From Hamadaea tsunoensis DSM 44101 (GTDB lineage: Bacteria > Actinomycetota > Actinomycetes > Mycobacteriales > Micromonosporaceae): 64,000 nt of DNA. Numbering within the stretch: the stretch's first letter is position 1; each line of letters begins with the position of its first letter. The DNA lies in contig NZ_AUAX01000016.1 in assembly GCF_000428945.1 (NCBI RefSeq), positions 62,001-126,000 on the forward strand, written 5' to 3'. The position numbers and the translations under genes were made by a program. Below, piece after piece: positions 4,348-55,890 of the stretch. A model generated the notes under the pieces. It worked only from the letters and a program-made list of their open reading frames with translations. It ran no database searches and was not told the DNA's origin.

Positions 4348-4523
4348 AAGATCGTTTTGTCCCGGGTTCGTCGATCTCACCTCCGCTCCTCCCGCGGGAG
4401 ACCGTTCCGCCCCTATCGCTGCGCTCCGGGGACTCCACTGCCAGCACAGTGGGGCGACGCATCGTTCACCGTCATTCGGTCACGGTTTCGCCCTTCACCC
4501 CCAGCCTTTGTCGCGACTGTCCG
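4348..4523 (+). repeat. Dispersed structured element (CCCGGGTTCG family), copy A
   Basis: One of four copies in this window (with 5067-5230, 49533-49673, 55744-55890). The order is: AAGATC leader, CCCGGGTTCGTCGATCTC, ACCTCCGCTCCT, the palindrome CTCCCGCGGGAG, a short hairpin with CCCC/GGGG stem, CTCCACTGCCA, a GGGCGACGCATC box, then a GGTCACGGTTTCGCCC region. No open frame is conserved between copies. This copy lies just downstream of the HD-domain gene in the same orientation and faces copy B. Confidence 0.7.
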
Positions 4524-5066: not shown

Positions 5067-5230
5067 CGGACAGTCGCGACAAAGGTCGGGGGGCGAAGGG
5101 CGAAACCGTGACCGAACGACGGTGAACGATGCGTCGCCCCACTCAGGTGGCAGTGGAGGCGCCCCGCGCCGGAACGGTCTCCCGCGCGAGGAGCGGAGGT
5201 GAGATCGACGAACCCGGGAAATAAAGATCT
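5067..5230 (-). repeat. Dispersed structured element (CCCGGGTTCG family), copy B
   Basis: Reverse-orientation copy that matches copy A over its whole length, including the distal GTCGCGACTGTCCG block that copies C and D lack. Its internal hairpin is GGCGC-GGG-GCGCC, different in sequence from copy A but still paired. It begins 21 bp after the stop of the VWA gene and in the same direction as that gene. Confidence 0.7.
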
Positions 5231-5251: not shown

Positions 5252-7180
5252 CTACCTCCCCCGCCGTGCCCGGATGTAGTCGGAGATGACGTACCGCCCG
5301 AGATCCTCCGCCGATGGAGTGAACACTCGTCCCCCGCTGCGCCGGGCGATCGCGTCGACGAAGCGCCGCAGCCCCGGATCCTCCCCCAGCATGAAGAGGT
5401 TGAGCGACGCCCCGTACCGGGTCAGGTGGTCGACCTCGACGACGGTGGCCTCGATCGTCTCGCGTACCGGCGGCCAGGAGAAGTACGGGCCGTCGGGCGT
5501 GTTGTGCGAGGTCGGCTCGCCGTCGGTGACCACCAGGACGACCGGTTCCCCGTCGGAGTGCTTGCGCAGGTGGCGGCCGGCGAGCTGGAGGGCGTGCTGG
5601 AGGTTGGTGCCCTTGTCCCAGTCGGGTTCGGCGCCCGCGAGTTCGACGTCGGTCATGGTGGCGGCGCTGCGGCCGAAGCCGATGATCTGCAGTGCGTCCT
5701 GCGGGTAGCGGGTGGCGATGAGGTGGGCGAGGGCGAGCGCGGTCTGCTTCATCGGGCCCCACCGGTCTTCGAGGACCATCGAGACCGACAGGTCGACGCA
5801 CAGGGCCACCGCCGCGGAGGTGCGTCGTTCGGTTTCGACGACCTCGAAGTCATCGACCTCCAGGCGTACGGGGGTGTGCGGGCCGTTGCGCAGGACCGCG
5901 CGCGAGACCGTGCGGACGACGTCGAGCGGCTGCGTGTCACCGAACTGCCACGGCCGCGAAGCGCCCGTGATCTCCCCCGCGGCCCCGGCCATCGCCAGGT
6001 CGTGCTGTCCCTGCCGGCCGCGGCCCAGGTCTGCGAAGATCGAGTTCAATGCCGTGCCGCCGAGCCTGCGCAAGGCCTTGGGGCTCAACGTCAGCCCTTC
6101 GCCGGTACGCGTCACCCAGCCCTGCCGCCGCAGTTCCCGTTCGAGTTCCTGGAGCCGGCGGACGTCTTCGGCGGCCTGATTCCCGAGCGTACGCTCGACG
6201 GCCTCGACGTCGACGTCGTCGAGTGTCGCACCTGGACGGTCCTGGCCGAGCTGGTCGAGGAGGGCGTCGAGGTCGCTGATCTCTTCGAGGGCGCCGGTCG
6301 CCTGCCCGTAGCCGAGTTCGGCGTTGCCCCGGGTCTGCACGGCGCCGCCCCAGGACAGGCCCGGTCGCAGGGCGCGCAGGTTGTCGCCGAGTTCGGCCAT
6401 CTCCGAGCCGAGCGGCCCCTGGAAGGCCTGGTCCATGAGGTCGGCGAGTTCCTGGCGCTGGCGTTCGGACAGCGAGCGCATCAGCCGCTCGCCGGCCGCG
6501 AACCGGCGGCCGAGGACGTCGATGAGTTCGTCGACGTTCTGCGGGTTCTCCGGGAAGTAGTCGCCGTGCTTGTTCATGAAGTCGGCGAACCGGTCGGTGA
6601 CGTCCTCGTTGCGGGCGTGCCGGGCCAGCAGGTCGTTGAGGTCGTGCATCATGCCGGCCATCGCCTCGCGGGCGGCCGGGTCCGACGCGGCTTCCTTCAT
6701 CCCCCGGAACCGCTGTTCCATCACGTCCTGGCGCAGGCCGTCGAGGATCTGGTTGTACAGGGCGGCTGCCTCGGGGCTCTCCCACCGGTAGCCTTCGAGC
6801 TCGCGTACGGCTTGGGCGGTGGAGCGGGGCAGGTTGTCCAGCATCGACCGGGCGAAGTCCGCGTCCATGTCCGTACGCGGCGCCAGCGCGTCCCGTTCCG
6901 TCGCGACGGCCTGGTCGAGCAGGTGCTGCGCGCGGGTCACGGCACCGCCGAGGTTGCCCCGGCGCAGGGCTTCGCGGCGGGCCCGCATCGCCCGGGCGGT
7001 CAGCTCGTCGAGGCCCCGCCGGCCGTCCGGGCCCCGGCGGAGCAGATCGTTGAGCGCGTCGCGTACGCCGCGGCCGGCCAGCACGTCCCGGCCGACCTGG
7101 TCGACGGCGGCCCGGACGTCGTAGGGGGCGGCCAGCGGATCGGGGCCGCCGTCCCAGGCGCCGTAACGGTTGCGGCTCAC
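5252..7180 (-). CDS. VWA-domain protein, partner of a MoxR-type ATPase
   Basis: 642 residues. The C-terminal third is a von Willebrand A domain with the metal-site motif CVDLSVSM (D-x-S-x-S, about residue 450) and later TDGEPT. The N-terminal two thirds are helical and charged with no membrane segment. The start GTG overlaps the stop of the upstream ATPase gene by four bases (GTGA), so the two are translationally coupled. MoxR-type AAA plus VWA pairs act as chaperone or metal-insertion machines; the client here is unknown. The last codons run up to the dispersed element copy B. Confidence 0.85.
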   Translation of the reverse strand: MSRNRYGAWDGGPDPLAAPYDVRAAVDQVGRDVLAGRGVRDALNDLLRRGPDGRRGLDELTARAMRARREALRRGNLGGAVTRAQHLLDQAVATERDALAPRTDMDADFARSMLDNLPRSTAQAVRELEGYRWESPEAAALYNQILDGLRQDVMEQRFRGMKEAASDPAAREAMAGMMHDLNDLLARHARNEDVTDRFADFMNKHGDYFPENPQNVDELIDVLGRRFAAGERLMRSLSERQRQELADLMDQAFQGPLGSEMAELGDNLRALRPGLSWGGAVQTRGNAELGYGQATGALEEISDLDALLDQLGQDRPGATLDDVDVEAVERTLGNQAAEDVRRLQELERELRRQGWVTRTGEGLTLSPKALRRLGGTALNSIFADLGRGRQGQHDLAMAGAAGEITGASRPWQFGDTQPLDVVRTVSRAVLRNGPHTPVRLEVDDFEVVETERRTSAAVALCVDLSVSMVLEDRWGPMKQTALALAHLIATRYPQDALQIIGFGRSAATMTDVELAGAEPDWDKGTNLQHALQLAGRHLRKHSDGEPVVLVVTDGEPTSHNTPDGPYFSWPPVRETIEATVVEVDHLTRYGASLNLFMLGEDPGLRRFVDAIARRSGGRVFTPSAEDLGRYVISDYIRARRGR

Positions 7181-8583
7181 TCCCGGCTCCCGTAGAGGGT
7201 GCGGCCCTCGTCGGTGGTGGCCTTCGACATGCGGCGGGTCAGATGCAGCCCTTCGAGCACGAACTCGACCCCGGAGGCGGCCTCGCCCGGCGTGGGCGCG
7301 TCGCCGATGCCGAGCCGGTCGAGCACCTTGGCCAGGCCGGGGACGGTGCCGATCTGGCGCAGCACGTCGGCGGCCGGGACCAGTTCGCCGGTCTCGATGA
7401 TGTCGCCTTCGGCGACCCGGTCCACGAAACCGGACAGGTCCAGGCCCGCCAGGCGGGCGCGGAAGGTCTCGGCGGTCGCGACCCGCAGCAGGTGGCCGAG
7501 GATCTCGATCTCGCGGCCCTCCTCGCCGCTCTCGAACTCGACCTTGCCGCGCAGGGTGCTGGTCACGGACACGGTGTCCCCGATCCGCGCGACCGGGTCG
7601 GCCTCGTTGAGCAGGCCGGACCGGCGCAGCGCGGCGGCGGCGACCGTCTCGGCGGCGGCGATGGCGAACCGGGCCGAGACGCCGCTGCGCGAGTCGACCG
7701 ACGGGGACTCGCGTACGCCGCGGGCGAACCGGGCCAGCACCTCGATCAGGTGTCCGGGCAGGGCGGCGACGAGGTCGGCCTCCTGCTGGATCAGGTCCAT
7801 CTCGAGTTCGAGGTCCAGCGGGTAGTGGGTGCGGATCTCGGCGCCGAAGCGGTCCTTGAGCGGGGTGATGATCCGGCCCCGGTTGGTGTAGTCCTCCGGG
7901 TTGGCGCTGGCCACCAGCAGGATGTCCAGCGGCAGCCGCAGCCGGTAGCCGCGTACCTGGATGTCGCGCTCCTCCAGCACGTTGAGCAGGCTGACCTGGA
8001 TCCGCTCGGCCAGGTCGGGCAGCTCGTTGACGGCGAAGACCCCGCGGTTGGCCCGCGGCACGAGTCCGAAGTGGATGGTCTCCGGGTCGCCGAGCGTACG
8101 CCCCTGGGCGACCTTGATCGGGTCCACGTCGCCGATGAGGTCGCCGACGCTCGTGTCCGGGGTGGCGAGCTTCTCGGCGTACCGCTCGTCGCGGTGCAGC
8201 CACGAGATGGGCTGCAGGTCGCCGGCCTCGGCGGCCGCGCGGCGGGCGGCGGGCGTGATGGGGTGCAGCGGGTGCTCGTTGAGCTCGGAGCCGGGCAGGA
8301 CCGGGGTCCACTCGTCGAGCAGGCCGACCAGGGTGCGGATCAGGCGGGTCTTGCCCTGGCCGCGCTCGCCCAGCAGCACCATGTCGTGGCCGGCCAGGAT
8401 GGCCCGCTCGACCTCGGGCAGCACGGTGTCGTCGTAGCCGACCACACCGGGGAATCGGGGCTCGCCCGTACGCATCCGGGCCAGCAGGTTCTCGCGCAGC
8501 TCTACCTTGACCGGCCGGTACCGGTGCCCGGCCGCCCGCAGTTCGCCGACCGTCGCGGGTCGGCCTTCCGGCGTGATCGTCAC
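7177..8583 (-). CDS. MoxR/ChlI-like AAA+ ATPase
   Basis: 468 residues. The Walker A motif is LLGERGQGKTRLIRTL (about 70-85). The Walker B and lid region includes GVFAVNELPDLAERIQ and VLEERDIQVRGYRLRLPLDILLVASANPEDYTNRGRI, typical of magnesium-chelatase-like and MoxR ATPases, where the ring insert and sensor Asn are well kept. It is the first gene of a two-gene operon with the VWA protein. It probably remodels or loads a target protein with help from its VWA partner. Confidence 0.85.
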   Translation of the reverse strand: MTITPEGRPATVGELRAAGHRYRPVKVELRENLLARMRTGEPRFPGVVGYDDTVLPEVERAILAGHDMVLLGERGQGKTRLIRTLVGLLDEWTPVLPGSELNEHPLHPITPAARRAAAEAGDLQPISWLHRDERYAEKLATPDTSVGDLIGDVDPIKVAQGRTLGDPETIHFGLVPRANRGVFAVNELPDLAERIQVSLLNVLEERDIQVRGYRLRLPLDILLVASANPEDYTNRGRIITPLKDRFGAEIRTHYPLDLELEMDLIQQEADLVAALPGHLIEVLARFARGVRESPSVDSRSGVSARFAIAAAETVAAAALRRSGLLNEADPVARIGDTVSVTSTLRGKVEFESGEEGREIEILGHLLRVATAETFRARLAGLDLSGFVDRVAEGDIIETGELVPAADVLRQIGTVPGLAKVLDRLGIGDAPTPGEAASGVEFVLEGLHLTRRMSKATTDEGRTLYGSRE

Positions 8584-8697: not shown

Positions 8698-8778
8698 CAA
8701 GATCCCGCTTGGATCAGGAAAACCACCCGGATCATGGGCCATGATCACGTGGCGATCCCTGATCCGAGCGGGATCTTG
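8698..8778 (+). repeat. 81-bp palindromic element, copy 1
   Basis: Outer arms of about 21 bp (one mismatch) enclose an inner stem GATCATGG-G-CCATGATC. Compared with the other copies both sides of the inner stem changed together (A to G and T to C), so pairing is kept. It lies between the MoxR gene start and the 3' end of the CBM gene. A 14-bp tandem duplication GGCTCGATCTTGAC (8781-8808) abuts its right end. Confidence 0.75.
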
Positions 8779-11241: not shown

Positions 11242-11586
11242 TCAGGGGGCCAGGTGGCGGACGACCAGGACCGCCGCCTGGGAGATGAGGGCCGCGACCT
11301 GCGTACCGTCGGCGAGCCGCCCGAGGTAGGTGAAGGCGCGCTCCAGCTTGCCCTTGTCCCGCGGCTGCTCGGCCAGCAGGAGGGCGATCGCCTGCAATGC
11401 CTGCCGGGCCTGCTCGCGGTTGTCCGCCGCGAACTCGTCGAGCCGGCCCTCGATCTCGGCCAGCAGCGCGGCGGAGTCGGTCGCCTGCACGTTGGTCTGG
11501 TGGAACTCCGAGTCCTTCGCGTTGAACACGGGCTGGCTGCTGTGGAACGTCATGTCGCCGTGGAAGTTGAAGGTCGAGTCGTCCAT
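11242..11586 (-). CDS. Small helical protein with N-terminal FHGD...FHQ motif
   Basis: 114 residues. The first 30 residues contain NFHGDMTFHSSQ and then F-x(7)-FHQ, a beta-type pattern with regularly spaced Phe-His pairs. The remaining 80 residues are predicted helices ending in a hydrophobic stretch VAALISQAAVLVVRHL. The same FHGD motif ends the protein encoded immediately upstream in the same direction (11648-13396, gap 61 bp). A motif shared between neighbours, N-terminal in one and C-terminal in the other, suggests that the two proteins meet through it. No enzyme motif is seen. Confidence 0.7.
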   Translation of the reverse strand: MDDSTFNFHGDMTFHSSQPVFNAKDSEFHQTNVQATDSAALLAEIEGRLDEFAADNREQARQALQAIALLLAEQPRDKGKLERAFTYLGRLADGTQVAALISQAAVLVVRHLAP

Positions 11587-11647
11587 CGGGACTCCTCGCG
11601 CGAAGATTCGGACGTTCGGTGGGTCGGGCCGCCCGGTTCTGGTGGGC

Positions 11648-13396
11648 TCAGTTCTGGTGGAACGTCGACGTTCCGCCGAAGGCCTGCTGGCCGCCGTGGA
11701 ACGTCAGGTCGCCGTGGAAGTTCTGGATGTGGTTGACCCGCTGCGCGAACTCGGCGATGTCGTAGCCGCCGTCCTGCAGGAAGCGGAGAATCGACTCGCT
11801 CACCGCCCGCTCGATCAGCTTGACGTACTTCGCCGTGTCCAGCAGCTGCAGGTACTTCACGATGACGGGGTCGGCGGCGGCCGCGCGTACGCTCAGCCGG
11901 GCGCCGTAGTCGTGGACGCGCGACAGTTCGGTGTCGCGGCCCGACGCGGCCATCCGCAGCCCGGTACGCGCCATCCGGGCCAGGCCGGTCAGGATCCGCC
12001 AGCCGCTCGCGGCCGAGTCGGCGGGCATGGCGCGCAGCGCTTCGCGTACGGCCAGCCAGCCCGCGACGCGGGGGCGCATCGTGTCGACCAGTTCGAACCG
12101 CTCCCGCACCGGCGGCAGGACCCGCGACAGGAACTCCGTGTACAGCATGCCGCCCTCGACCGCGACGTGCACGAACACCGAGATGTCCACCCCGGCCACC
12201 CGCGGCGGGAGGACCTCGGTCCCCGCCCCGGTACGCACGGGGTTGCCCGGCCCCGAGACGACGATGCGCTCGTAGTACCGCAGGCCGCCCTGCGGACAGC
12301 GGCGGATCGCGTCGATCAGCTCGTCGGCCGCGTACGCGTACGGCATGCGCCGGTCCGGCGACAGCAGCGGATCGTCGACGTCCATCCGCCCGTCGGCGAC
12401 GAGATGCGGCAGGAACTCCAGGTTGGCGATGCGGGCGCCCTCGGGCAGGCCGGCGTCGCGCATGCCTTCGACCGCCGAGCGGATGCCGCCGTAGAGGCCG
12501 TCGGTGAGCTCGCCCAGCGGCAGCACCGGGCCGCCGCCGTCCTCGGCCGGGCGCAGCCGCAGCGCGAAGCTCCAGTCGTCGGAACCGTCGCTGACCGACA
12601 TCCCGCAGCCCAGGAACGGGTCGCGCTCGTGGACGACGATGTTGCCGTACTGGGCCGCGGCGATCTTCGCCAGCCGCCGGCGTACCCGGTCGCTGTGCGT
12701 CTCCGGCCGGAATCCGGGCCGGTCGGCGGCCAGTTCCGTGGCGAGGATCGCGTTCACCCGCAACCGGTAGGCCAGCAGGACACCGAACGTCAGGACCGCG
12801 AGCGCCAGCGGGATCAGAAGGGCGGCCAACGAACCCAGGTCAGGTGGCGCCTGATCGGCGCCCGAGCCGCCGGCCGAAGCGGACGTTCCGCTCACCCCGC
12901 CCGTCCCGCTCGTGCCCATCGCGCTCTGCACCTTCTGCAGGACGCCGAACAACGCGAACAGCAGCGAGCCGGCGATGCAGCACACCGCCGCCCCGACCGC
13001 GCCGAGCACGCCGAGGACCACCCATCGACGCGTACGCGGAGACAGCGCCCGCATCAGCGGCGTACGCCAGCCGGCCACCACGAAGCCGATGGCCAGCCAG
13101 CCGACGGTGAAGACCGGGGTGAACCGCAGGCCGACCAGCACGAGGACGGCGAGCGCGAAGGAGGTGGCCAACCGCAGCCGGCGGGCCCGCAGGGCGTGCC
13201 GGACGACCGGCTCGACGTCGAAGCCGAACGAGGGGGCGACCGCACGGCGCTCGTCCTCGACGAGTTCGCGGATGACCGTCTCGCCGAACCCGGGCTCCAG
13301 GTACGCGCCCGCGCACAGCTGCCGCGTGGTGGTCTGGAACCGGTCGAGCGCGCGGTAGACCGGGAAACCCAGCAGCCGCAGATCCGGTGACGTCAT
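11648..13396 (-). CDS. Four-helix membrane protein with C-terminal FHGD...FHQ motif
   Basis: 582 residues. About residues 70-105 hold two membrane helices, 115-145 a third (with a Cys-Cys pair) and 180-210 a fourth, separated by a Gly/Ser-rich loop. The remaining 370 residues are cytoplasmic and of no family I recognise. The very C terminus reads NFHGDLTFHGGQ and ends in FHQN, matching the N terminus of the next gene's product. The ATG at 13396 has GAGG upstream; the open frame runs further but without ribosome site. Probably forms one unit with the 114-residue gene. Confidence 0.7.
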   Translation of the reverse strand: MTSPDLRLLGFPVYRALDRFQTTTRQLCAGAYLEPGFGETVIRELVEDERRAVAPSFGFDVEPVVRHALRARRLRLATSFALAVLVLVGLRFTPVFTVGWLAIGFVVAGWRTPLMRALSPRTRRWVVLGVLGAVGAAVCCIAGSLLFALFGVLQKVQSAMGTSGTGGVSGTSASAGGSGADQAPPDLGSLAALLIPLALAVLTFGVLLAYRLRVNAILATELAADRPGFRPETHSDRVRRRLAKIAAAQYGNIVVHERDPFLGCGMSVSDGSDDWSFALRLRPAEDGGGPVLPLGELTDGLYGGIRSAVEGMRDAGLPEGARIANLEFLPHLVADGRMDVDDPLLSPDRRMPYAYAADELIDAIRRCPQGGLRYYERIVVSGPGNPVRTGAGTEVLPPRVAGVDISVFVHVAVEGGMLYTEFLSRVLPPVRERFELVDTMRPRVAGWLAVREALRAMPADSAASGWRILTGLARMARTGLRMAASGRDTELSRVHDYGARLSVRAAAADPVIVKYLQLLDTAKYVKLIERAVSESILRFLQDGGYDIAEFAQRVNHIQNFHGDLTFHGGQQAFGGTSTFHQN

Positions 13397-13695: not shown

Positions 13696-16600
13696 TCAGC
13701 CGTTCGGGAACAGGCTGCCGTAGTCGGCGGCGGCCATCGCGATGTCCGCCTGCGCCCAGAACCGGTGGTAGGTGAACGTCGGGGCGGGGCCGGTGCCGGC
13801 CATGTACGCCGCGACGGGTCCCCACGCCGGGTCCTGCGCGTAGAACGGGCGGATGCTCATGAACGTGGAGCTGGAGTTGATCTGAGCACCGCTGGGCATC
13901 GTGCCGCTGAACCCGGACGGGATGTACAGACCGGTCTGCGAGGTGGAGTTCCACTGGTCGTCGAACCGGTTGTAGTCCGTACGCGTCTCAGGCACCGCGA
14001 CACCCTTCGTGTCGGCGTGCGTGTAGATGCCGTCGACCAGGCACTTCGCCATCGCCTTCGCGGTGGTGCTGCCCGACTTCTGCGCGTACCAGGCCAGCGT
14101 CCGCGCGTACGCGGCGGCGACACCGACATCGTTCGTCGTGTTGCTGACCGCCACGTGCAGGCCGGTGTTGGCCGCCGGGCCCGACGTGCTGCCGGAGTAG
14201 CTGGCCGCCGGGGCGCCCGACCACGTCATGTCCGACGGGAAGGAGTACGCCGACGACGTGCAGGTGGTCTGGCCGATCGCCCAGGGCACCCACTTGTCGA
14301 GGATCTGCTTGGCCTTCGCGTCGTTGCTGACGTTGTAGTACTCCGCGACGCGCTCCAGCGACCACGCCTGGAACCCGAACCACTGGTTCGACGGCGGGTC
14401 GTGGAACACCGGCTGGTAGTCGTACGCCCAGCCGTAGAAGGTCGGCGTGCCGGCCGGCGGCGCCGAGTAGTTGCCGTTCCAGCTGTTGGTCGCGCCGCCG
14501 GCGATACCGCCCTCGGCCGACTGCAGCCAGAGGTAGGAGTCGAGCTGCCGGCCGAGGCTGGTCTGCCAGTCCGCCGAGCCGGTCGACGACTGCGGCCGCA
14601 GGGCCGACGGGCCCGACGGCGACAGCGCCCACGCGGCCAGCGGGTTCTGGTAACCCTGGTGCCACGACGACGAGCCGATCCGCCACGCCCACGAGCCCTG
14701 CATGTCGCCACCCCAGGCGTAGTACCAGGTCAGCATGTAGGAGCTGCTGCTCTTGCCGCTGCCGGGGGTGCACGACGGGCTGGTGCAGCCCGGGTTCTTG
14801 AAGTACTTGTCGTACATCGCGTAGCGCAGGTAGTCGCCGAGCTTGCCGGCCTTGGTCACCGTCGAGGCGATCTGCGACTGGTTGCCCTGCGCGGTGGCCC
14901 ACGTCAGCGCCCAGTACGCGGCCTGCACTGCCCGCGCGTCGGCGTCCGGCGCATCGGTGTAGCGCCACTGCCCGGTGGTGGAACCGGCGACGAACAGCGA
15001 CGGGTAGTTGGCGAACCGGCCCGTGTCACAGGACGGGTGCGCCACCGTCTCCCACACCGACTCCTGCGGGCCGCGCTGGTAGGTGTTGATGTAGGTCGAC
15101 TTCTGCCCGACCGCCTGGCCGCACTCCGCCGACGTACGCCCGCTGGCGTACCCGTAGGTGTTGTCGACGTCCAGCAGCCAGTGCATGCCGTAGACCAGCT
15201 TGTTGCCGTAGGTGCTCTGCAGCTCGGCCGAGAGCGGGTCGGCACCGGGGGTCACTCCGGAGTCCAAAGCGGACGGGTAGCCGCTGGGCTGGTCGTGCTC
15301 CGGCGCGTACGTGGCGGGCTTGCTGGCGTCGTAGGAGCTGGAGCCGCCCGGCTGGCCGGCCGACGTGGGGATGATGTAGGTCTCCATCGTCGTCCACGCG
15401 TTGTTGAACGGCGTCCAGTTGCCCGAGACCCGGCCGTACTGCGCCTCCAGCCACAGCCAGAAGCTGAACGCCTCCGACGTGGTCTCGTGGCCCCAGTCCG
15501 GCGCCTCGACGAGCAGCGTCTCCACCGAGTGGTACGGGACGCCCTCGGACGAGAAGTAGCCGTTCGCCGGGTTCTTGATCTTGTTGTACTGGGTCATGAA
15601 CTGCGTGATGTACGCGTTCTGCGGCGCGTCGTCGTCCGCCTCCGTCGCCGTCACGCTCACCGACGTCAGACCGGTCGAGGAGACCGTGATGGTACGCGTA
15701 CCGTTGGCCGTGTCCGCGTCTTGCGCCGCGGCGAGGGTGACGTTCTGGTTGGTGCTCCAGTTGCTGGACGTGAACGTCAGCGTCGCTCCACTGGAGACGG
15801 TGATGTCGGTGTCACCGGTACCCGCGACGGAGCCGACGGTGACCGTGCCGCTGGGCTGCGCGGCGAGGTGCACGGCGTAGACGGCGGTGGAGCCCTCGGG
15901 GACAGTGACCGCGGTGGGCGTGACCACCAGCGCCTGGGTGCTGGTGTCGTTGTCGGCCTCGGTGGCGGTCACGGTGACCGACGTGAGTCCGGACGAGGCG
16001 ACGGTGATCGGGCGCGTCCCGTTGGTGCTGTCGGTGTCCTCCGCCGCGGCCAGCGTGACCGTCTGGTTGACGTTCCAGTTGCTGGTGGTGAAGGTCAGGC
16101 TGCCGCCCGCGCTCACCGTCAGGTCCGTGTCTCCGGAGCCCGCGGTGTTCGTCACGGTCACGTTGCCGGTCGGCTGCGACTGCAGGTGGACCGTGTAGCT
16201 CGCCGTGCCGCCTTCGGGAACGCTGACGGCCGTCGACGAGACGACCAGCGCCTGCGCGGTGTCGTTGTCGGCCTCCGTCGCGGTGACGGTCACCGACGTC
16301 AGGCCGGACGAGGCCACAGTGAACGTACGCGTCCCGTTGGTGGTGTCGGTGTCCTCGGCCGCGCGCAGCGTCACGTTCTGGTTCGTGTTCCAGTTGCTGG
16401 ACGTGAACGTCAGGCTGCCGCCCGCGCTCACCGTCAGATCCGTGTCACCGGAGCCCGCCGTGCTCGTCACGGTCACGTTCGCCGACGGCTGCGTGGCGAG
16501 GTGGACCGCGTACGTGGCGGTGCCGCCCTCGGGCACGCTCACCGCCGTCGGCGACACGACCAGCGCCTGCGCGGTGCTGTCGTTGTCCGCCTCGGTCGCC

Positions 16601-17364
16601 GTCACGTTCACGGTGGTCAGCCCGGAGGCCGCGACCGCGATCGTACGCGTGCCGTTGGTGGTGTCGGTGTCCTCCGCCGCGGCGACTGTGACGTTCTGGG
16701 CCGTGCTCCAGTTGCTCGACGTGAACGTCAGGCTGCCGCCCGCGCTCACCGTCAGGTCCGTGTCACCGGAGCCCGCCGTGCTGGTCACCGTCACGTTGCC
16801 CGACGGCGCGCTGGACAGCTTGACGGCGTAGGTCGTCATGCCACCCTCGGGTACGCTCACCGCCGTCGGCGTGACGACCAGCTGCGGCGTGGTGGTCCCG
16901 CCGTTGCAGGCGACGCCGTTGACCGTGAACGCGGTCGGGTCGGTGTTGGTGCCGCTGTAGCTGCCGTTGAACCCGATGCCGGTCGACGCCCCGGTGCCGA
17001 GACTGCCGTTCCACGACAGGCTCGTCACGCTCACCTGCTTGCTGCCCGACGCCTGCGTCCAGTTGCCCGACCAGCCCTGGTCCACATGCTGGTTGCCCGG
17101 GAAGGCGAAGCCCAGCGTCCAGCTGGAGATCGCGTCGCCGGTGTTGGTGATCGTGATGTTGCCGCCGAACCCGCTGCCGTTGTCCCAGGCCTTGCTGTAG
17201 GCGACCTGGCAGGAGGCGGCGGCCTGGGCGGAGCTGGGCAGCCCCACCAGACCGGCGACGGCCAGACCGGCGGCCAGCAGACCGGCGACCCGTCGTCTGC
17301 GCCGGGAGGCGCCTGCGCGAGCGGCCAGAAGTGCGGCCGGATTCCATCGTTTGCCGAATAGCAT
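13696..17364 (-). CDS. Secreted GH48 cellobiohydrolase with CBM2 and four Calx-beta-like repeats
   Basis: 1222 residues. A long signal peptide (1-48, RRRRR then a hydrophobic core) leads to a CBM2 (about 49-155, with W in SSWTLGF, GWSGNW and SLSWNG). Four near-identical repeats of about 105 residues follow (160-578), each with VPEGG near the start and ATEADND at the end, resembling Calx-beta modules. The rest (580-1222) is a complete GH48 catalytic domain; HETTSEAFSFWLWLEA contains the expected acid Glu. GH48 enzymes cut cellulose processively from reducing ends. The ATG at 17364 follows GAGGAGA. A CelR-like operator lies 137 bp upstream. Confidence 0.95.
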   Translation of the reverse strand: MLFGKRWNPAALLAARAGASRRRRRVAGLLAAGLAVAGLVGLPSSAQAAASCQVAYSKAWDNGSGFGGNITITNTGDAISSWTLGFAFPGNQHVDQGWSGNWTQASGSKQVSVTSLSWNGSLGTGASTGIGFNGSYSGTNTDPTAFTVNGVACNGGTTTPQLVVTPTAVSVPEGGMTTYAVKLSSAPSGNVTVTSTAGSGDTDLTVSAGGSLTFTSSNWSTAQNVTVAAAEDTDTTNGTRTIAVAASGLTTVNVTATEADNDSTAQALVVSPTAVSVPEGGTATYAVHLATQPSANVTVTSTAGSGDTDLTVSAGGSLTFTSSNWNTNQNVTLRAAEDTDTTNGTRTFTVASSGLTSVTVTATEADNDTAQALVVSSTAVSVPEGGTASYTVHLQSQPTGNVTVTNTAGSGDTDLTVSAGGSLTFTTSNWNVNQTVTLAAAEDTDSTNGTRPITVASSGLTSVTVTATEADNDTSTQALVVTPTAVTVPEGSTAVYAVHLAAQPSGTVTVGSVAGTGDTDITVSSGATLTFTSSNWSTNQNVTLAAAQDADTANGTRTITVSSTGLTSVSVTATEADDDAPQNAYITQFMTQYNKIKNPANGYFSSEGVPYHSVETLLVEAPDWGHETTSEAFSFWLWLEAQYGRVSGNWTPFNNAWTTMETYIIPTSAGQPGGSSSYDASKPATYAPEHDQPSGYPSALDSGVTPGADPLSAELQSTYGNKLVYGMHWLLDVDNTYGYASGRTSAECGQAVGQKSTYINTYQRGPQESVWETVAHPSCDTGRFANYPSLFVAGSTTGQWRYTDAPDADARAVQAAYWALTWATAQGNQSQIASTVTKAGKLGDYLRYAMYDKYFKNPGCTSPSCTPGSGKSSSSYMLTWYYAWGGDMQGSWAWRIGSSSWHQGYQNPLAAWALSPSGPSALRPQSSTGSADWQTSLGRQLDSYLWLQSAEGGIAGGATNSWNGNYSAPPAGTPTFYGWAYDYQPVFHDPPSNQWFGFQAWSLERVAEYYNVSNDAKAKQILDKWVPWAIGQTTCTSSAYSFPSDMTWSGAPAASYSGSTSGPAANTGLHVAVSNTTNDVGVAAAYARTLAWYAQKSGSTTAKAMAKCLVDGIYTHADTKGVAVPETRTDYNRFDDQWNSTSQTGLYIPSGFSGTMPSGAQINSSSTFMSIRPFYAQDPAWGPVAAYMAGTGPAPTFTYHRFWAQADIAMAAADYGSLFPNG
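15640..16900 (-). repeat. Four in-frame ~315-bp coding repeats in the GH48 gene
   Basis: The VPEGG codons recur near 16850, 16530, 16220 and 15900, a period of roughly 315 bp. Long identical stretches at DNA level (the GSGDTDLTVSAGGSLTF and ATEADND blocks) indicate recent or homogenised duplication. The number of linker modules could change by recombination, altering the reach between CBM2 and the catalytic domain. Confidence 0.8.
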
Positions 17365-17500
17365 GCTGCGTCTCCTCGCGATGCGTGAAGATCGCCGGCG
17401 CCCGGAGACAGGCGAGGATATGCGAATCGGGTCCACCATCACGATCGCGAGATCGTGCTGCCTGAGGCGACCACAGTTCGGCTCGGACCTGAGTGTTACA

Positions 17501-17514
17501 TGGGAGCGCTCCCG
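17501..17514. promoter_or_regulatory. CelR/CebR-type cellulose operator
   Basis: TGGGAGCGCTCCCG matches 13 of 14 positions of the palindromic actinobacterial cellulase operator TGGGAGCGCTCCCA bound by LacI-family CelR/CebR repressors, which are released by cello-oligosaccharides. It is 137 bp upstream of the GH48 start. A separate inverted repeat CACGATC-GCGA-GATCGTG (17440-17457) lies between. The regulator gene is not in the window. Confidence 0.85.
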
Positions 17515-17610
17515 CATTCAAGAGTCTCGTTGTATGCTCCCGCCCTCGCCGTGCGCCGCACTCCCAAGATCCCACCCGCCGCGTACGCCAAGATCCCGCT
17601 TGGCGTACGC

Positions 17611-17691
17611 CAAGATCCCGTTTGGATCAGGGAAATCACCCGAATCATGGGCCATGATTACGTGGCGATCCCTGATCCAAACGGGATCTTG
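17611..17691 (+). repeat. 81-bp palindromic element, copy 2
   Basis: The most perfect copy: 22-bp outer arms match exactly and the inner stem AATCATGG-G-CCATGATT is intact. Its left end is part of a 22-bp tandem duplication (17581-17602 and 17603-17624, one mismatch) starting GCGTACGCCAAGATCCCG. It lies between the GH48 promoter and the 3' end of the aldo/keto reductase gene; with the operator it fills the 17365-17726 gap, where I see no gene. Confidence 0.8.
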
Positions 17692-22498: not shown

Positions 22499-22579
22499 CT
22501 TGATCCCGTTTGGATCAGGGAAATCACCCGAATCATGGGCCATGATTACGTGCGAAACCCTGATCCAAACGGGATCAAG
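22499..22579 (+). repeat. 81-bp palindromic element, copy 3
   Basis: The outer 22-bp arms are perfect but begin CTTGATC and end GATCAAG, where copies 1 and 2 have CAAGATC and GATCTTG; both sides changed together. The inner stem is intact; the right internal loop is the variant ACGTGCGAAA. The right end is inside a perfect 22-bp tandem duplication (22571-22592 and 22593-22614). It lies between convergent genes. Confidence 0.8.
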
Positions 22580-25381: not shown

Positions 25382-26605
25382 GTGGCGGGCAGGCTGCGGT
25401 TCGGAGTGGAACGCGACGCCGAGGAGCGGCACGGCTCCTGGCTCGAACTGTTCTTCGACCTCATCTTCGTCGTCGCGGTCGCCGAGCTCGCCGGCACCCT
25501 CGAACACCACCCCACCCCGCACGGCTTCCTGCGCTACGCCGCCCTGTTCCTGCCCGTCTGCTGGGCCTGGATCGGCTACACCTTCTTCGCCGACCGCTGG
25601 CAGAACGAGGACGCGCCGCATCGCGTACTCATGATCGTGTCGATGCTCGGCGTCGCCTTCCTCGCCATCGCGATCCCGCACGCCTTCGACGGCGGCACCG
25701 GCTCCGTGCGCTTCGCGATCAGCTACGGCGCCGTCCGGCTGCTGCTCATCGTCCTGTACGCGCGGGCGTACACGACCGATCCGGCGGCCCGCCCGCTCAC
25801 CGGGCGCTACGTCACCGGCTTCACGATCGGCGCGCTGCTCTGGTTCTCCTCCGCCGCCGTACCCCTCCCCCAACGGCACTGGCTCTGGGCCGTCGGGTTC
25901 GCCGTCGAACTGGCCACGCCGCTGCTGTCCGCCCGGGCGATCGCGCGCGTACCCTTCCACCGCTCGCACATCCCCGAACGGTTCGGCCTGTTCGTCATCA
26001 TCGTACTCGGCGAGGCGGTCGCGCTCGGCGTCACCGGGATCGAAGGCGGATCGCTCGGCCTGCCGACCCTGCTGGCCGCGGCGGTCGGCTTCCTCGGCGC
26101 GGGCGCCCTGTGGTGGCACTATTTCGACCACGTCGACGGGTCCGCGCTGCAACGCTGGCTGGTCTCCGGCCAGACCTACGTCTACGGGCACATGCCCCTG
26201 TACGCCGGGATCACCGCGTACGGGGTGGGGGTGCTGCTGGGCAGCCGGGCGATGACGGACGCGGCGCTCGCCGGCGCGGCGCGGTGGTGCCTGTGCGCGG
26301 GGGCCGCCGCCTACTTCCTGGTGGTCGCGGCCATCCAGTGGACGATGACCATGCCGGTCGGCGACGCTCGCATGTGGACGCGACTGGGGACCGCCGTCCT
26401 CCTGACGGTTCTCGCGACGGTGAGCGGGCTGCCACCCCTCGCCGTCGCCGTCCTGGTTCTCGCGGCGGTACTGGCGGCCCTCGTCGCCGAGCATCTCCTC
26501 ACCGCCCGCACCCCGGCTCCCGCCGCCCCTGCCCCCGCTCCCGCCCTCGCCCCTGCCCCAAGATCTGGTTTGGATCAGGGAAATCACCCGAATCTTGGGC
26601 CATGA
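25382..26605 (+). CDS. LtrA-like (low temperature requirement A) membrane protein
   Basis: 407 residues. The family signature WLELFFDLIFVVAVAELA occurs early (about 17-34), followed by about ten membrane helices, with RSHIPERFGLFVIIVLGEAV in the middle. LtrA was named in Listeria for growth at low temperature; its biochemical role is unknown. GTG start with GGGGGAGGA upstream. The last 16 codons, after an Ala/Pro tail, are encoded by the dispersed 81-bp element (26559-26639), which also supplies the stop codon. Confidence 0.85.
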   Translation: MAGRLRFGVERDAEERHGSWLELFFDLIFVVAVAELAGTLEHHPTPHGFLRYAALFLPVCWAWIGYTFFADRWQNEDAPHRVLMIVSMLGVAFLAIAIPHAFDGGTGSVRFAISYGAVRLLLIVLYARAYTTDPAARPLTGRYVTGFTIGALLWFSSAAVPLPQRHWLWAVGFAVELATPLLSARAIARVPFHRSHIPERFGLFVIIVLGEAVALGVTGIEGGSLGLPTLLAAAVGFLGAGALWWHYFDHVDGSALQRWLVSGQTYVYGHMPLYAGITAYGVGVLLGSRAMTDAALAGAARWCLCAGAAAYFLVVAAIQWTMTMPVGDARMWTRLGTAVLLTVLATVSGLPPLAVAVLVLAAVLAALVAEHLLTARTPAPAAPAPAPALAPAPRSGLDQGNHPNLGP

Positions 26606-26639
26606 TCACGTGCGAAACCCTGATCCACACGGGATCTTC
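26559..26639 (+). repeat. 81-bp palindromic element, copy 4 (inside the LtrA-like gene end)
   Basis: Slightly decayed copy: left arm starts CAAGATCTGG, inner stem has one-sided change (AATCTTGG with CCATGATC), right loop of the ACGTGCGAAA type as in copy 3. It overlaps the last 47 bases of the LtrA-like gene, so part of the repeat is translated. Confidence 0.75.
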
Positions 26640-38572: not shown

Positions 38573-38653
38573 GTGATCGCGTTTGGATCAGGGATCGCCA
38601 CGTAATCTTGGCCCAAGATTCGGGTGATTTCCGTGATCCAAACCCGATCCGGG
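38573..38653 (-). repeat. 81-bp palindromic element, copy 5 (reverse orientation)
   Basis: The asymmetric internal loops show that this copy is inverted relative to the other four. Its inner stem is AATCTTGG-C-CCAAGATT where others have AATCATGG/CCATGATT: both sides changed together, so the stem is kept. The outer arms are partly decayed at the tips. It lies in the gap between the DUF1697 gene and the lipoprotein gene. Confidence 0.75.
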
Positions 38654-49532: not shown

Positions 49533-49673
49533 GGGTGACCGAACCGCGGTGAAGGATGCTTCGCCCGACCAACCTGGCAGTGGAGTCCCCGGAGCGCAGC
49601 GATAGGGGCGGAACGGTCTCCCGCGGGAGGAGCGGAGGTGAGATCGACGAACCCGGGACATGAATGTGATCTT
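49533..49673 (-). repeat. Dispersed structured element (CCCGGGTTCG family), copy C
   Basis: Reverse-orientation copy. The central part (CCCGGGTTCG to CTCCACTGCCA) is almost identical to copy A, including the same CCCC/GGGG hairpin. The distal third is shorter and diverged. It lies between the S8 terminator and the cyclase-family gene, in the opposite orientation to both neighbours. Confidence 0.7.
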
Positions 49674-55743: not shown

Positions 55744-55890
55744 AAGATCAAAATAAAGATCACATCCATGTCCCGGGTTCGCCGATCTCACCTCCGCTCC
55801 TCACGCGGGAGACCGTTCCGGCCCGTCGCTCACGCGACGGGCCTCCACTGCCAGGTGAGTGGGGCGAAGCATCGTTCGCCGCGGATCGGG
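55744..55890 (+). repeat. Dispersed structured element (CCCGGGTTCG family), copy D
   Basis: Forward copy. Its internal hairpin is GGCCCGTCGC-TCAC-GCGACGGGCC (55820-55843), a perfect 10-bp stem with sequence unrelated to the hairpins of copies A to C at the same place. The flanking conserved blocks are nearly unchanged. Lies just upstream of the small HEAT-like gene and before the TTGATCAA array. Confidence 0.75.

Follow-up and report, generated by a model that had tools for sequence, protein, structure and literature searches.

Why do two neighbouring genes whose products are otherwise unrelated carry the same stretch of about 24 residues, at the end of one protein and at the start of the other? 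The question is raised by a 64,000-nucleotide stretch of Hamadaea tsunoensis DSM 44101 (NZ_AUAX01000016.1, positions 62,001-126,000 of the forward strand; hereafter the window), in which the gene for a 582-residue membrane protein, P0002 (11648..13396, minus strand), is followed on the same strand by the gene for a 114-residue partner, P0001 (11242..11586, minus strand). A reading of the DNA made beforehand from its letters alone, which we call the sequence-only reading, had noticed an FHGD...FHQ motif that is C-terminal in the first protein and N-terminal in the second, and had proposed a homotypic tag of the bacterial amyloid signalling (BASS) type joining a two-part system. We found that the tagged pair is a real, strong and general feature in many soil actinobacteria and that the two tags change together between lineages, which suggests a lock-and-key link, possibly an amyloid-like one, that would connect the cell membrane with enzymes or adaptors of the cell-death type.

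A single short segment is shared by P0002 and P0001

Both genes are open reading frames (ORFs) with counterparts elsewhere: P0002, the constant component of the pair, has relatives across the genomes of the family, and P0001 corresponds to a matching downstream frame in most of those relatives. Comparison of the two proteins with BLASTP aligned residues 7-30 of P0001 with residues 559-581 of P0002, 14 of 24 positions being identical (E 4e-07), and thus placed the motif where it had been noticed. In P0002 this segment is the C-terminal tag NFHGDLTFHGGQQAFGGTSTFHQN (residues 559-582; 11651..11722, minus strand), which co-varies with the partner across the family, and in P0001 it is the N-terminal tag NFHGDMTFHSSQPVFNAKDSEFHQ (residues 7-30; 11497..11568, minus strand), which is modelled with low confidence. 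BLASTP gave no second significant segment between the two proteins (next-best E 1.9). The sharing is therefore as short as the sequence-only reading had it, the rest of the proteins being without significant similarity, and a longer shared domain as the source of the motif is ruled out by this single segment of about 24 residues.

The match is far above chance. The P0002 tail scores 73 against P0001 (z 11.7; row L014 of our data set), a value that none of 300 shuffles of the tail reached, and a search with 26 tail residues against the six-frame translation of the 9.5-Mb genome returned at E <= 10 two places only, P0002 itself and P0001 (E 0.0016).

The pairing recurs in other genomes

Within the family, 113 of 354 genomes encode relatives of P0002 (E <= 1e-5), as do 40 of 296 genomes drawn from the class (E <= 0.001), the H. 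tsunoensis genome being included in both counts. The family set was assembled from 30 loci and 80 further regions, in which a profile search gave 113 family ORFs. Of these 111 were scored, the two dropped ORFs being frame pieces of the N-masked locus L099, and loci L001-L013 lie outside the counts. The last 45 residues of each member were compared with the same-strand frame starting near its stop codon, and the score was set against those of 300 shuffles. The downstream frame outscored all 300 tail shuffles in 98 of the 111 members, compared with 4 of 471 control ORFs taken from the same loci and put through the same procedure. An independent set from other actinobacterial families (39 loci) yielded a matching frame for 32 of 40 ORFs, a second frame of L163, which is an artefact, being counted as a miss. 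By eye, three further misses of this set (L126, L135 and L150) carry similar tags. The relatives' neighbours thus carry the matching motif as well, and the arrangement known from BASS-type pairs, with a motif C-terminal in one gene and N-terminal in the adjacent one, is found at these same frequencies.

The genes of most relatives overlap or nearly touch, unlike those of the window, which are separated by 61 nucleotides (11587..11647). Relative to the stop codon of the membrane gene the partner starts at a median of -1 nucleotide, with 109 of 116 starts lying within 20 nucleotides and the window pair providing the maximum (starts were counted for 116 of 134 partners, and start codons were picked mechanically). 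Such gene overlap is typical of co-translation.

Tail and tag change together

The tail sequences are almost wholly different between lineages, and the partner tags differ along with the tails. The window pair has the letters NFHGD..TFH, one group of relatives has GGQQNFGG.NTN.QNN, another GNQAVG.GA.A, and several pairs with a PNP-type partner G.VAGRD. The F-H letters of the originally noticed motif are a feature of this lineage, and other lineages have quite different ones. We asked whether the summed score of two cognate tail-partner pairs exceeds that obtained after swapping the partners. This was the case for 3713 of 3714 pairs of members with less than 35% body identity, for 597 of 606 at 35-45% and for 220 of 235 at 45-60%. 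The mean score of a tail is 76 against its own partner, 26 against the tail of an orthologue less than 30% identical and 25.5 in swapped pairs. Compared with the partners of members less than 40% identical, the own partner scored best for 89 of 98 members. The same separation is seen within single genomes: in the 12 genomes (of 20 listed) that hold two or three complete pairs, the own partner outscored the paralogue's partner for 25 of 25 tails. This co-variation across lineages and between paralogues of one genome gives strong support to the homotypic-tag reading, and we consider specific tag pairing between the membrane protein and its partner highly probable.

Several results weigh against so strict a pairing. 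The cognate sum exceeded the swapped sum in only 79 of 172 member pairs at 60-80% body identity and in 4 of 26 at 80% or more. Tags have hardly diverged among such near relatives, and specificity thus differs between lineages rather than between strains. The own partner was strictly the best of all 98 partners for only 35 of 98 members, and in the other-family set it was best for only 21 of 32. It outscored every other member's tail in only 20 of 58 cases (58 of the 62 representative membrane proteins entered this comparison) because close relatives share tails. When a raw score of at least 52 is used in place of the shuffles, 95 of 111 members pass along with 26 of 471 control ORFs, so that the control is less clean. 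Finally, 13 of the 111 members have no downstream frame that outscores all 300 shuffles. A weak downstream match can be seen for L036, L037 and L041 (equalled in 2, 2 and 5 of 300 shuffles), and at L040 the matching gene is located upstream instead of downstream. At L066, L095 and one of the two L069 copies an upstream PNP-type gene has a matching C-terminus (1, 0 and 0 of 200 shuffles for L066, the L069 copy and L095, respectively). No partner was found for L110 or for the second L069 copy, whose tail matches that of its paralogue. The four members L059, L060, L116 and L118 stop right after the last conserved helix, are tail-less and have no match in their locus; they are possibly decayed or differently coupled forms. 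L069 itself has two membrane paralogues side by side whose tails are nearly identical, and the upstream gene of L040 (L040:635-1393) encodes a 253-residue protein that has the matching tag at its C-terminus, resembles a nucleotide cyclase when judged by eye and has no Pfam match.

The likeness lies in the protein rather than in the DNA

Tags of adjacent genes might also be kept alike, in the absence of any functional pairing, by concerted DNA copying such as gene conversion that links the 3' end of the first gene with the 5' start of the second. The window pair speaks for this explanation and so against ours: all 14 scorable identical residues are encoded by the same codon (11.5 expected), and a repeat search reports the two tag segments as a 42-nucleotide repeat with 76% identity, so that for this pair taken alone a recent copy is compatible with the data. 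Over 98 pairs, however, 928 codons are identical among 1474 identical residues where 884 are expected from local usage, or just 1.05 times the expectation, and this places the match in general at the level of the protein. Many residue differences within matched pairs and the eight loci at which an upstream-encoded PNP-type protein is C-terminally tagged too also stand against copying. Gene conversion is thus rejected as the general cause of the likeness, and we regard copying without functional pairing as highly improbable.

The median length of the matched segments is 27 residues. On the tail side 54% of residues are G, N, Q, S, T or H, 9% are charged and 2% are proline, compared with 27%, 24% and 6% for the body of the protein, a composition that would suit amyloid signalling motifs. 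A different kind of protein-level match would be non-amyloid docking, in which the tail and the partner N-terminus co-fold into a beta-solenoid or a strand-exchange heterodimer and make up a constitutive complex of subunits, not a templated switch. Specific binding alone would suffice for the co-variation, many tags have by eye a G-x-A-x-A spacing like that of beta-roll repeats, and one of 78 small partners matches B_solenoid_ydck, a beta-solenoid Pfam model (E 7.4e-4). Tag and tail are nevertheless alike in sequence instead of complementary, which favours like-with-like stacking. Docking also sits less well with the low charge and proline and the high G/N/Q content, which suit amyloid signalling motifs, and with four partners of 176-191 residues (L134, L148, L153 and L163) in which two tag copies about 50 residues apart are seen by eye, an arrangement that recalls the double repeat of HET-s. 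On balance we find a docking complex rather unlikely.

A membrane protein family unnamed in the libraries searched

P0002 has four predicted membrane helices within residues ~61-221 (12734..13216, minus strand; AlphaFold2 helices 61-92, 94-111, 120-160 and 187-221), hydrophobicity and the positive-inside arrangement having been judged by eye from the sequence. They are followed in the AlphaFold2 model by a soluble, probably cytosolic domain (residues ~236-562; 11711..12691, minus strand). The mean predicted local distance difference test (pLDDT) score of the whole protein is 89.9 and its predicted template modelling (pTM) score 0.87; confidence is low for the first residues, the loop at ~160-186 (or, more narrowly, ~164-178) and the tail (residues 567-582, pLDDT < 50). 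A fold search of P0002 with Foldseek returned nothing at E <= 0.001. Comparison of the soluble domain with VIA gave a best Z of 7.8 (KA1), with START/Bet v 1 reaching at most 6.9, all inside the noise range stated for the tool, so that the modelled domain can be said to resemble helix-grip (START/Bet v 1) or KA1 folds weakly at most.

No Pfam family was found for P0002. We also scanned 62 membrane proteins, a set drawn from 66 representatives in which P0002 replaces L014 and L018, L043, L059 and L069 are omitted; the NCBIfam and Pfam families that came up (3 and 4) were each matched by one member only. Among the PADLOC models none represents the membrane protein. The P0002 family carries no name in these three libraries.

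The tag is joined to exchangeable partner domains

P0001 consists, in its AlphaFold2 model, of a tag region that is disordered ahead of the helices (residues 7-31, pLDDT < 50) and a four-helix domain (residues 33-112; 11251..11490, minus strand; helices 33-47, 54-73, 78-91 and 95-112). A Foldseek search with P0001 gave nothing at E <= 0.001, and no match to DUF5955 (PF19380) was found at E <= 1 (the Pfam cut-off is 27.1 bits). P0001 matches the PADLOC phage-defence candidate PDC-M14B weakly (E 5.6e-4). As judged by Pfam scans of the relatives, its helical domain occupies the position that is held in other partners by DUF5955-like, bDLD3 or EAD1 domains.

These scans covered all 38 large partners and 78 of 96 small ones, near copies and a few short pieces being omitted. 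PNP_UDP_1 was found in 32 of the 38 large partners, CHAT in two and bDLD3 in two; in the L101 partner bDLD3 stands behind PNP_UDP_1. Small partners matched at E <= 0.01 DUF5955 in 30 of 78 cases (best 2e-23), EAD1 in two and bDLD3 in one. The DUF5955-like helical domain is a candidate adaptor. Adaptors or effectors of the EAD/bDLD type (EAD1, bDLD3, PNPase and CHAT) are thus present in the operons of relatives, and none of these domains is found in P0001. In the PNP partners E237 and D262 (numbering of the L085 partner), which we take to be the ribose-binding and catalytic positions of the PNP superfamily, are kept in 32 of 32 sequences, a set obtained from the 38 large partners by removing the two CHAT proteins and four short ones. 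We also mapped the partner class (PNP, small or CHAT) onto a tail-free tree of 94 members, of which 90 carried a label; at least four changes of class are required.

The tag can also be found on an upstream gene. A PNP-like gene, recognised by a short motif, precedes the membrane gene and has a C-terminal tag at eight loci of one genus, g12 (L064, L066, L068, L069, L095, L103, L104 and L117). The three upstream genes tested by Pfam contain PNP_UDP_1. Five of the eight loci have in addition a small N-tagged partner downstream, giving triplets in which three proteins share one tag. In total, 11 of 111 members passed an upstream test at 1 in 200 shuffles or better, the passes of L033 and L099 being probably due to chance. 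The system is also broader than the two-part sensor proposed at first, in that the tag is found on PNP_UDP enzymes, CHAT proteases and Death-like/EAD adaptors. Taken as far as comparison of sequences can show, adjacency, pairing, co-variation, separation of paralogues and exchange of partner domains are general properties of the system.

A proposed mechanism and its direction

We propose with moderate confidence that the pair is a two-gene tag-signalling system that lacks an NLR (a NACHT/NB-ARC STAND NTPase) and works like bacterial amyloid signalling. The membrane protein would sense a disturbance at the membrane, either by its transmembrane part or by its cytosolic domain, and then cluster. 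The clustered tails would take up a beta-arch or amyloid-like fold, which would capture and template the N-terminal tags of the partners and so concentrate them. Proximity would directly activate a PNP_UDP or CHAT enzyme, while small partners such as P0001 would display their adaptor domain and recruit further effectors. Cells of filamentous actinobacteria would probably stop growing or die as a result, for example on phage infection, and the lineage-specific tags would work like addresses that keep paralogous systems from cross-talk. The pairing is well supported, and it is the amyloid structure, the direction of signalling and the immune role that we infer here. A wider version of this proposal, in which NLR-free, membrane-anchored amyloid signalling is widespread and an unnamed membrane receptor nucleates the matched tags of nucleotide-cleaving (PNP_UDP), caspase-like (CHAT) or Death-like adaptor partners through barcode-like tails that vary with lineage and paralogue, is put forward tentatively, as we give it somewhat less than an even chance. 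If true, it would provide a bacterial counterpart of signalling from membrane receptors to death domains or RHIMs, with more than 100 natural matched tag pairs.

The direction from membrane protein to partner is favoured because the partners include enzymes. Against it, the C-terminal tag of described systems is found on membrane-targeting effectors and the N-terminal tag on receptors (PMC7889193 and PMC12261475, in the parts available), and for this reason we keep the opposite direction as a rival. The membrane protein would then be the executioner, forming a pore or disrupting the membrane as BELL, HET-S or MLKL do, and would be seeded by the N-tagged partner in the role of trigger or adaptor; P0002, a predicted membrane protein with a C-terminal tag, has the appropriate layout. 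The N-tagged PNP_UDP proteins with their two invariant residues and the CHAT proteases are, however, of the effector type rather than the receptor type, in one genus the PNP-type protein itself has the C-terminal tag, and the conserved soluble domain of P0002 is large where the described BELL domain is small. We judge this opposite direction unlikely.

Signalling from membrane protein to partner also needs to be set against a housekeeping scaffold of the cell envelope or of development, with no part in defence or death. The presence of P0002 relatives in 113 of 354 family genomes would fit such a scaffold, as would their scarcity on mobile elements: phage records gave no P0002 match, and the plasmid collection gave a match in three records only, two of which were inspected and carry no annotation at the site. 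No named defence gene was found among the seven window neighbours scanned. Links to defence are in fact indirect, and this counts against the proposed role: besides the lack of a PADLOC model for the membrane protein, the small partners match PDC-M14B only weakly (8 of 78 with the best of its models, best E 2.6e-07), and a DUF5955 search of 41 genomes, the H. tsunoensis genome included, gave one weak match and none above the cut-off. On the other hand, PNP_UDP, CHAT, bDLD3 and EAD1 are a set of partner domains from predicted conflict and apoptosis systems (PMC7159879 and PMC8195603, from the accessible portions), and it would be unusual for housekeeping genes to be distributed patchily, to have several paralogues in one genome and to differ so much in their tags, so that we find a mere scaffold quite unlikely.

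Surroundings of the pair in the window

Gene pairs of a MoxR-like protein and a vWA protein form the core of published conflict systems. A pair consisting of a MoxR-like AAA ATPase gene and a vWA gene (5252-8583, minus strand) lies about 3 kb downstream of P0002/P0001 on the same strand. On the other side, 13696-17517 (minus strand) encodes a GH48 cellulase with a CBM2 module, with four direct repeats of ~315 nucleotides between them (15625-16875) that by eye resemble repeated Ig-type or Calx-beta linkers. Three window neighbours were tried at 80 loci of relatives: the zinc-ribbon gene matched at one and a piece of ~100 residues of the cellulase at three. Antisense reading frames made up most of what a search for conserved neighbours returned, and its result was left unused.

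The window also contains five copies of a largely palindromic 75-nucleotide element, GATCC...GGATC (8701-8775, 17614-17688, 22502-22576, 26562-26636 and 38575-38649), four of which are 72-95% identical to the reference copy; it looks like a mobile or repetitive extragenic palindromic (REP)-like repeat of this genome. A second repeat family of 56-126 nucleotides, at most 95% identical, occurs in both orientations (4358-4483, 5170-5225, 49535-49664 and 55769-55824).

Comparison with known systems

Dyrka et al. 2020 (JMB) reportedly described BASS pairs of BELL and NLR proteins in ten BASS families. The system presented here resembles BASS pairs in several respects. Two genes that lie next to each other or overlap share a short tag, placed at the C-terminus of one product and at the N-terminus of the other, there are many unrelated tag families, the hosts are filamentous actinobacteria, and CHAT is among the associated domains (PMC7889193, PMC8086366, PMC12261475 and PMC9815663, each in the part available). 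It differs in that the C-terminal tag is borne by a 582-residue, four-helix membrane protein in which no BELL was recognised, that the N-terminal tag is borne by small helical adaptors, PNP_UDP or CHAT proteins, and that the pair has no NLR. No NLR domain was found by Pfam in the 62 membrane proteins, the 38 large or the 78 scanned small partners; genes beyond the pair were scanned for domains in the window, at its seven neighbours. The missing NLR sets the pair apart from BASS-NLR systems, since described bacterial amyloid signalling centres on NLR receptors as far as the accessible sources go. The BASS-type label of the sequence-only reading consequently holds for the adjacent C- and N-terminal motifs, the amyloid-motif-like composition and the low confidence of the tags in the models, and fails for the NLR. 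Our best reading is a BASS-like tag system of the amyloid-signalling type in which a membrane protein, instead of an NLR, is the fixed component. The titles and abstract openings searched do not describe the pair; subscription full texts lay mostly outside this search, and the primary BASS paper may mention the membrane family.

Networks of EAD and Death-like domains use the same vocabulary of bDLD3, EAD1, PNPase and caspase-like domains, with homotypic coupling, in multicellular bacteria (PMC7159879 and PMC8195603, in the accessible parts), and predicted apoptosis-like systems include fusions of bDLD3 and PNPase (PMC8195603, same limit). In contrast to these networks, coupling in the present system runs through a tag of ~25 residues, alone or ahead of a folded adaptor, and the constant part is an unnamed membrane protein; none of the core domains (STAND, MoxR-vWA-VMAP/iSTAND, TRADD-N and GAP1) is listed in the membrane proteins and partners scanned. 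DUF5955 is matched by 30 of 78 small partners, as given above, and differs from the window pair in that P0001 itself has no match; the literature searched gave no mention of DUF5955.

The nearest experimentally tested case is that of fungal PNP_UDP effectors with amyloid motifs (PUASM), which are matched to those of NLRs and of which one has been found to form foci and to behave as a prion in Podospora (PMC9815663, as far as available). There too a G-rich tag ties PNP_UDP to its neighbour, and one genus of our set likewise has a C-terminal tag on the PNP-type protein; the differences are that the neighbour here is a membrane protein instead of an NLR and that the downstream PNP partners are tagged at the N-terminus. 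The pairs described here place the tag on an unnamed membrane family linked to effectors and Death-like adaptors of predicted bacterial apoptosis systems. With 98 pairs from the family and 32 from other families, they also amount to a large natural collection of co-varying tags, in which tag swapping would make the specificity of amyloid-type templating and the avoidance of cross-seeding directly testable.

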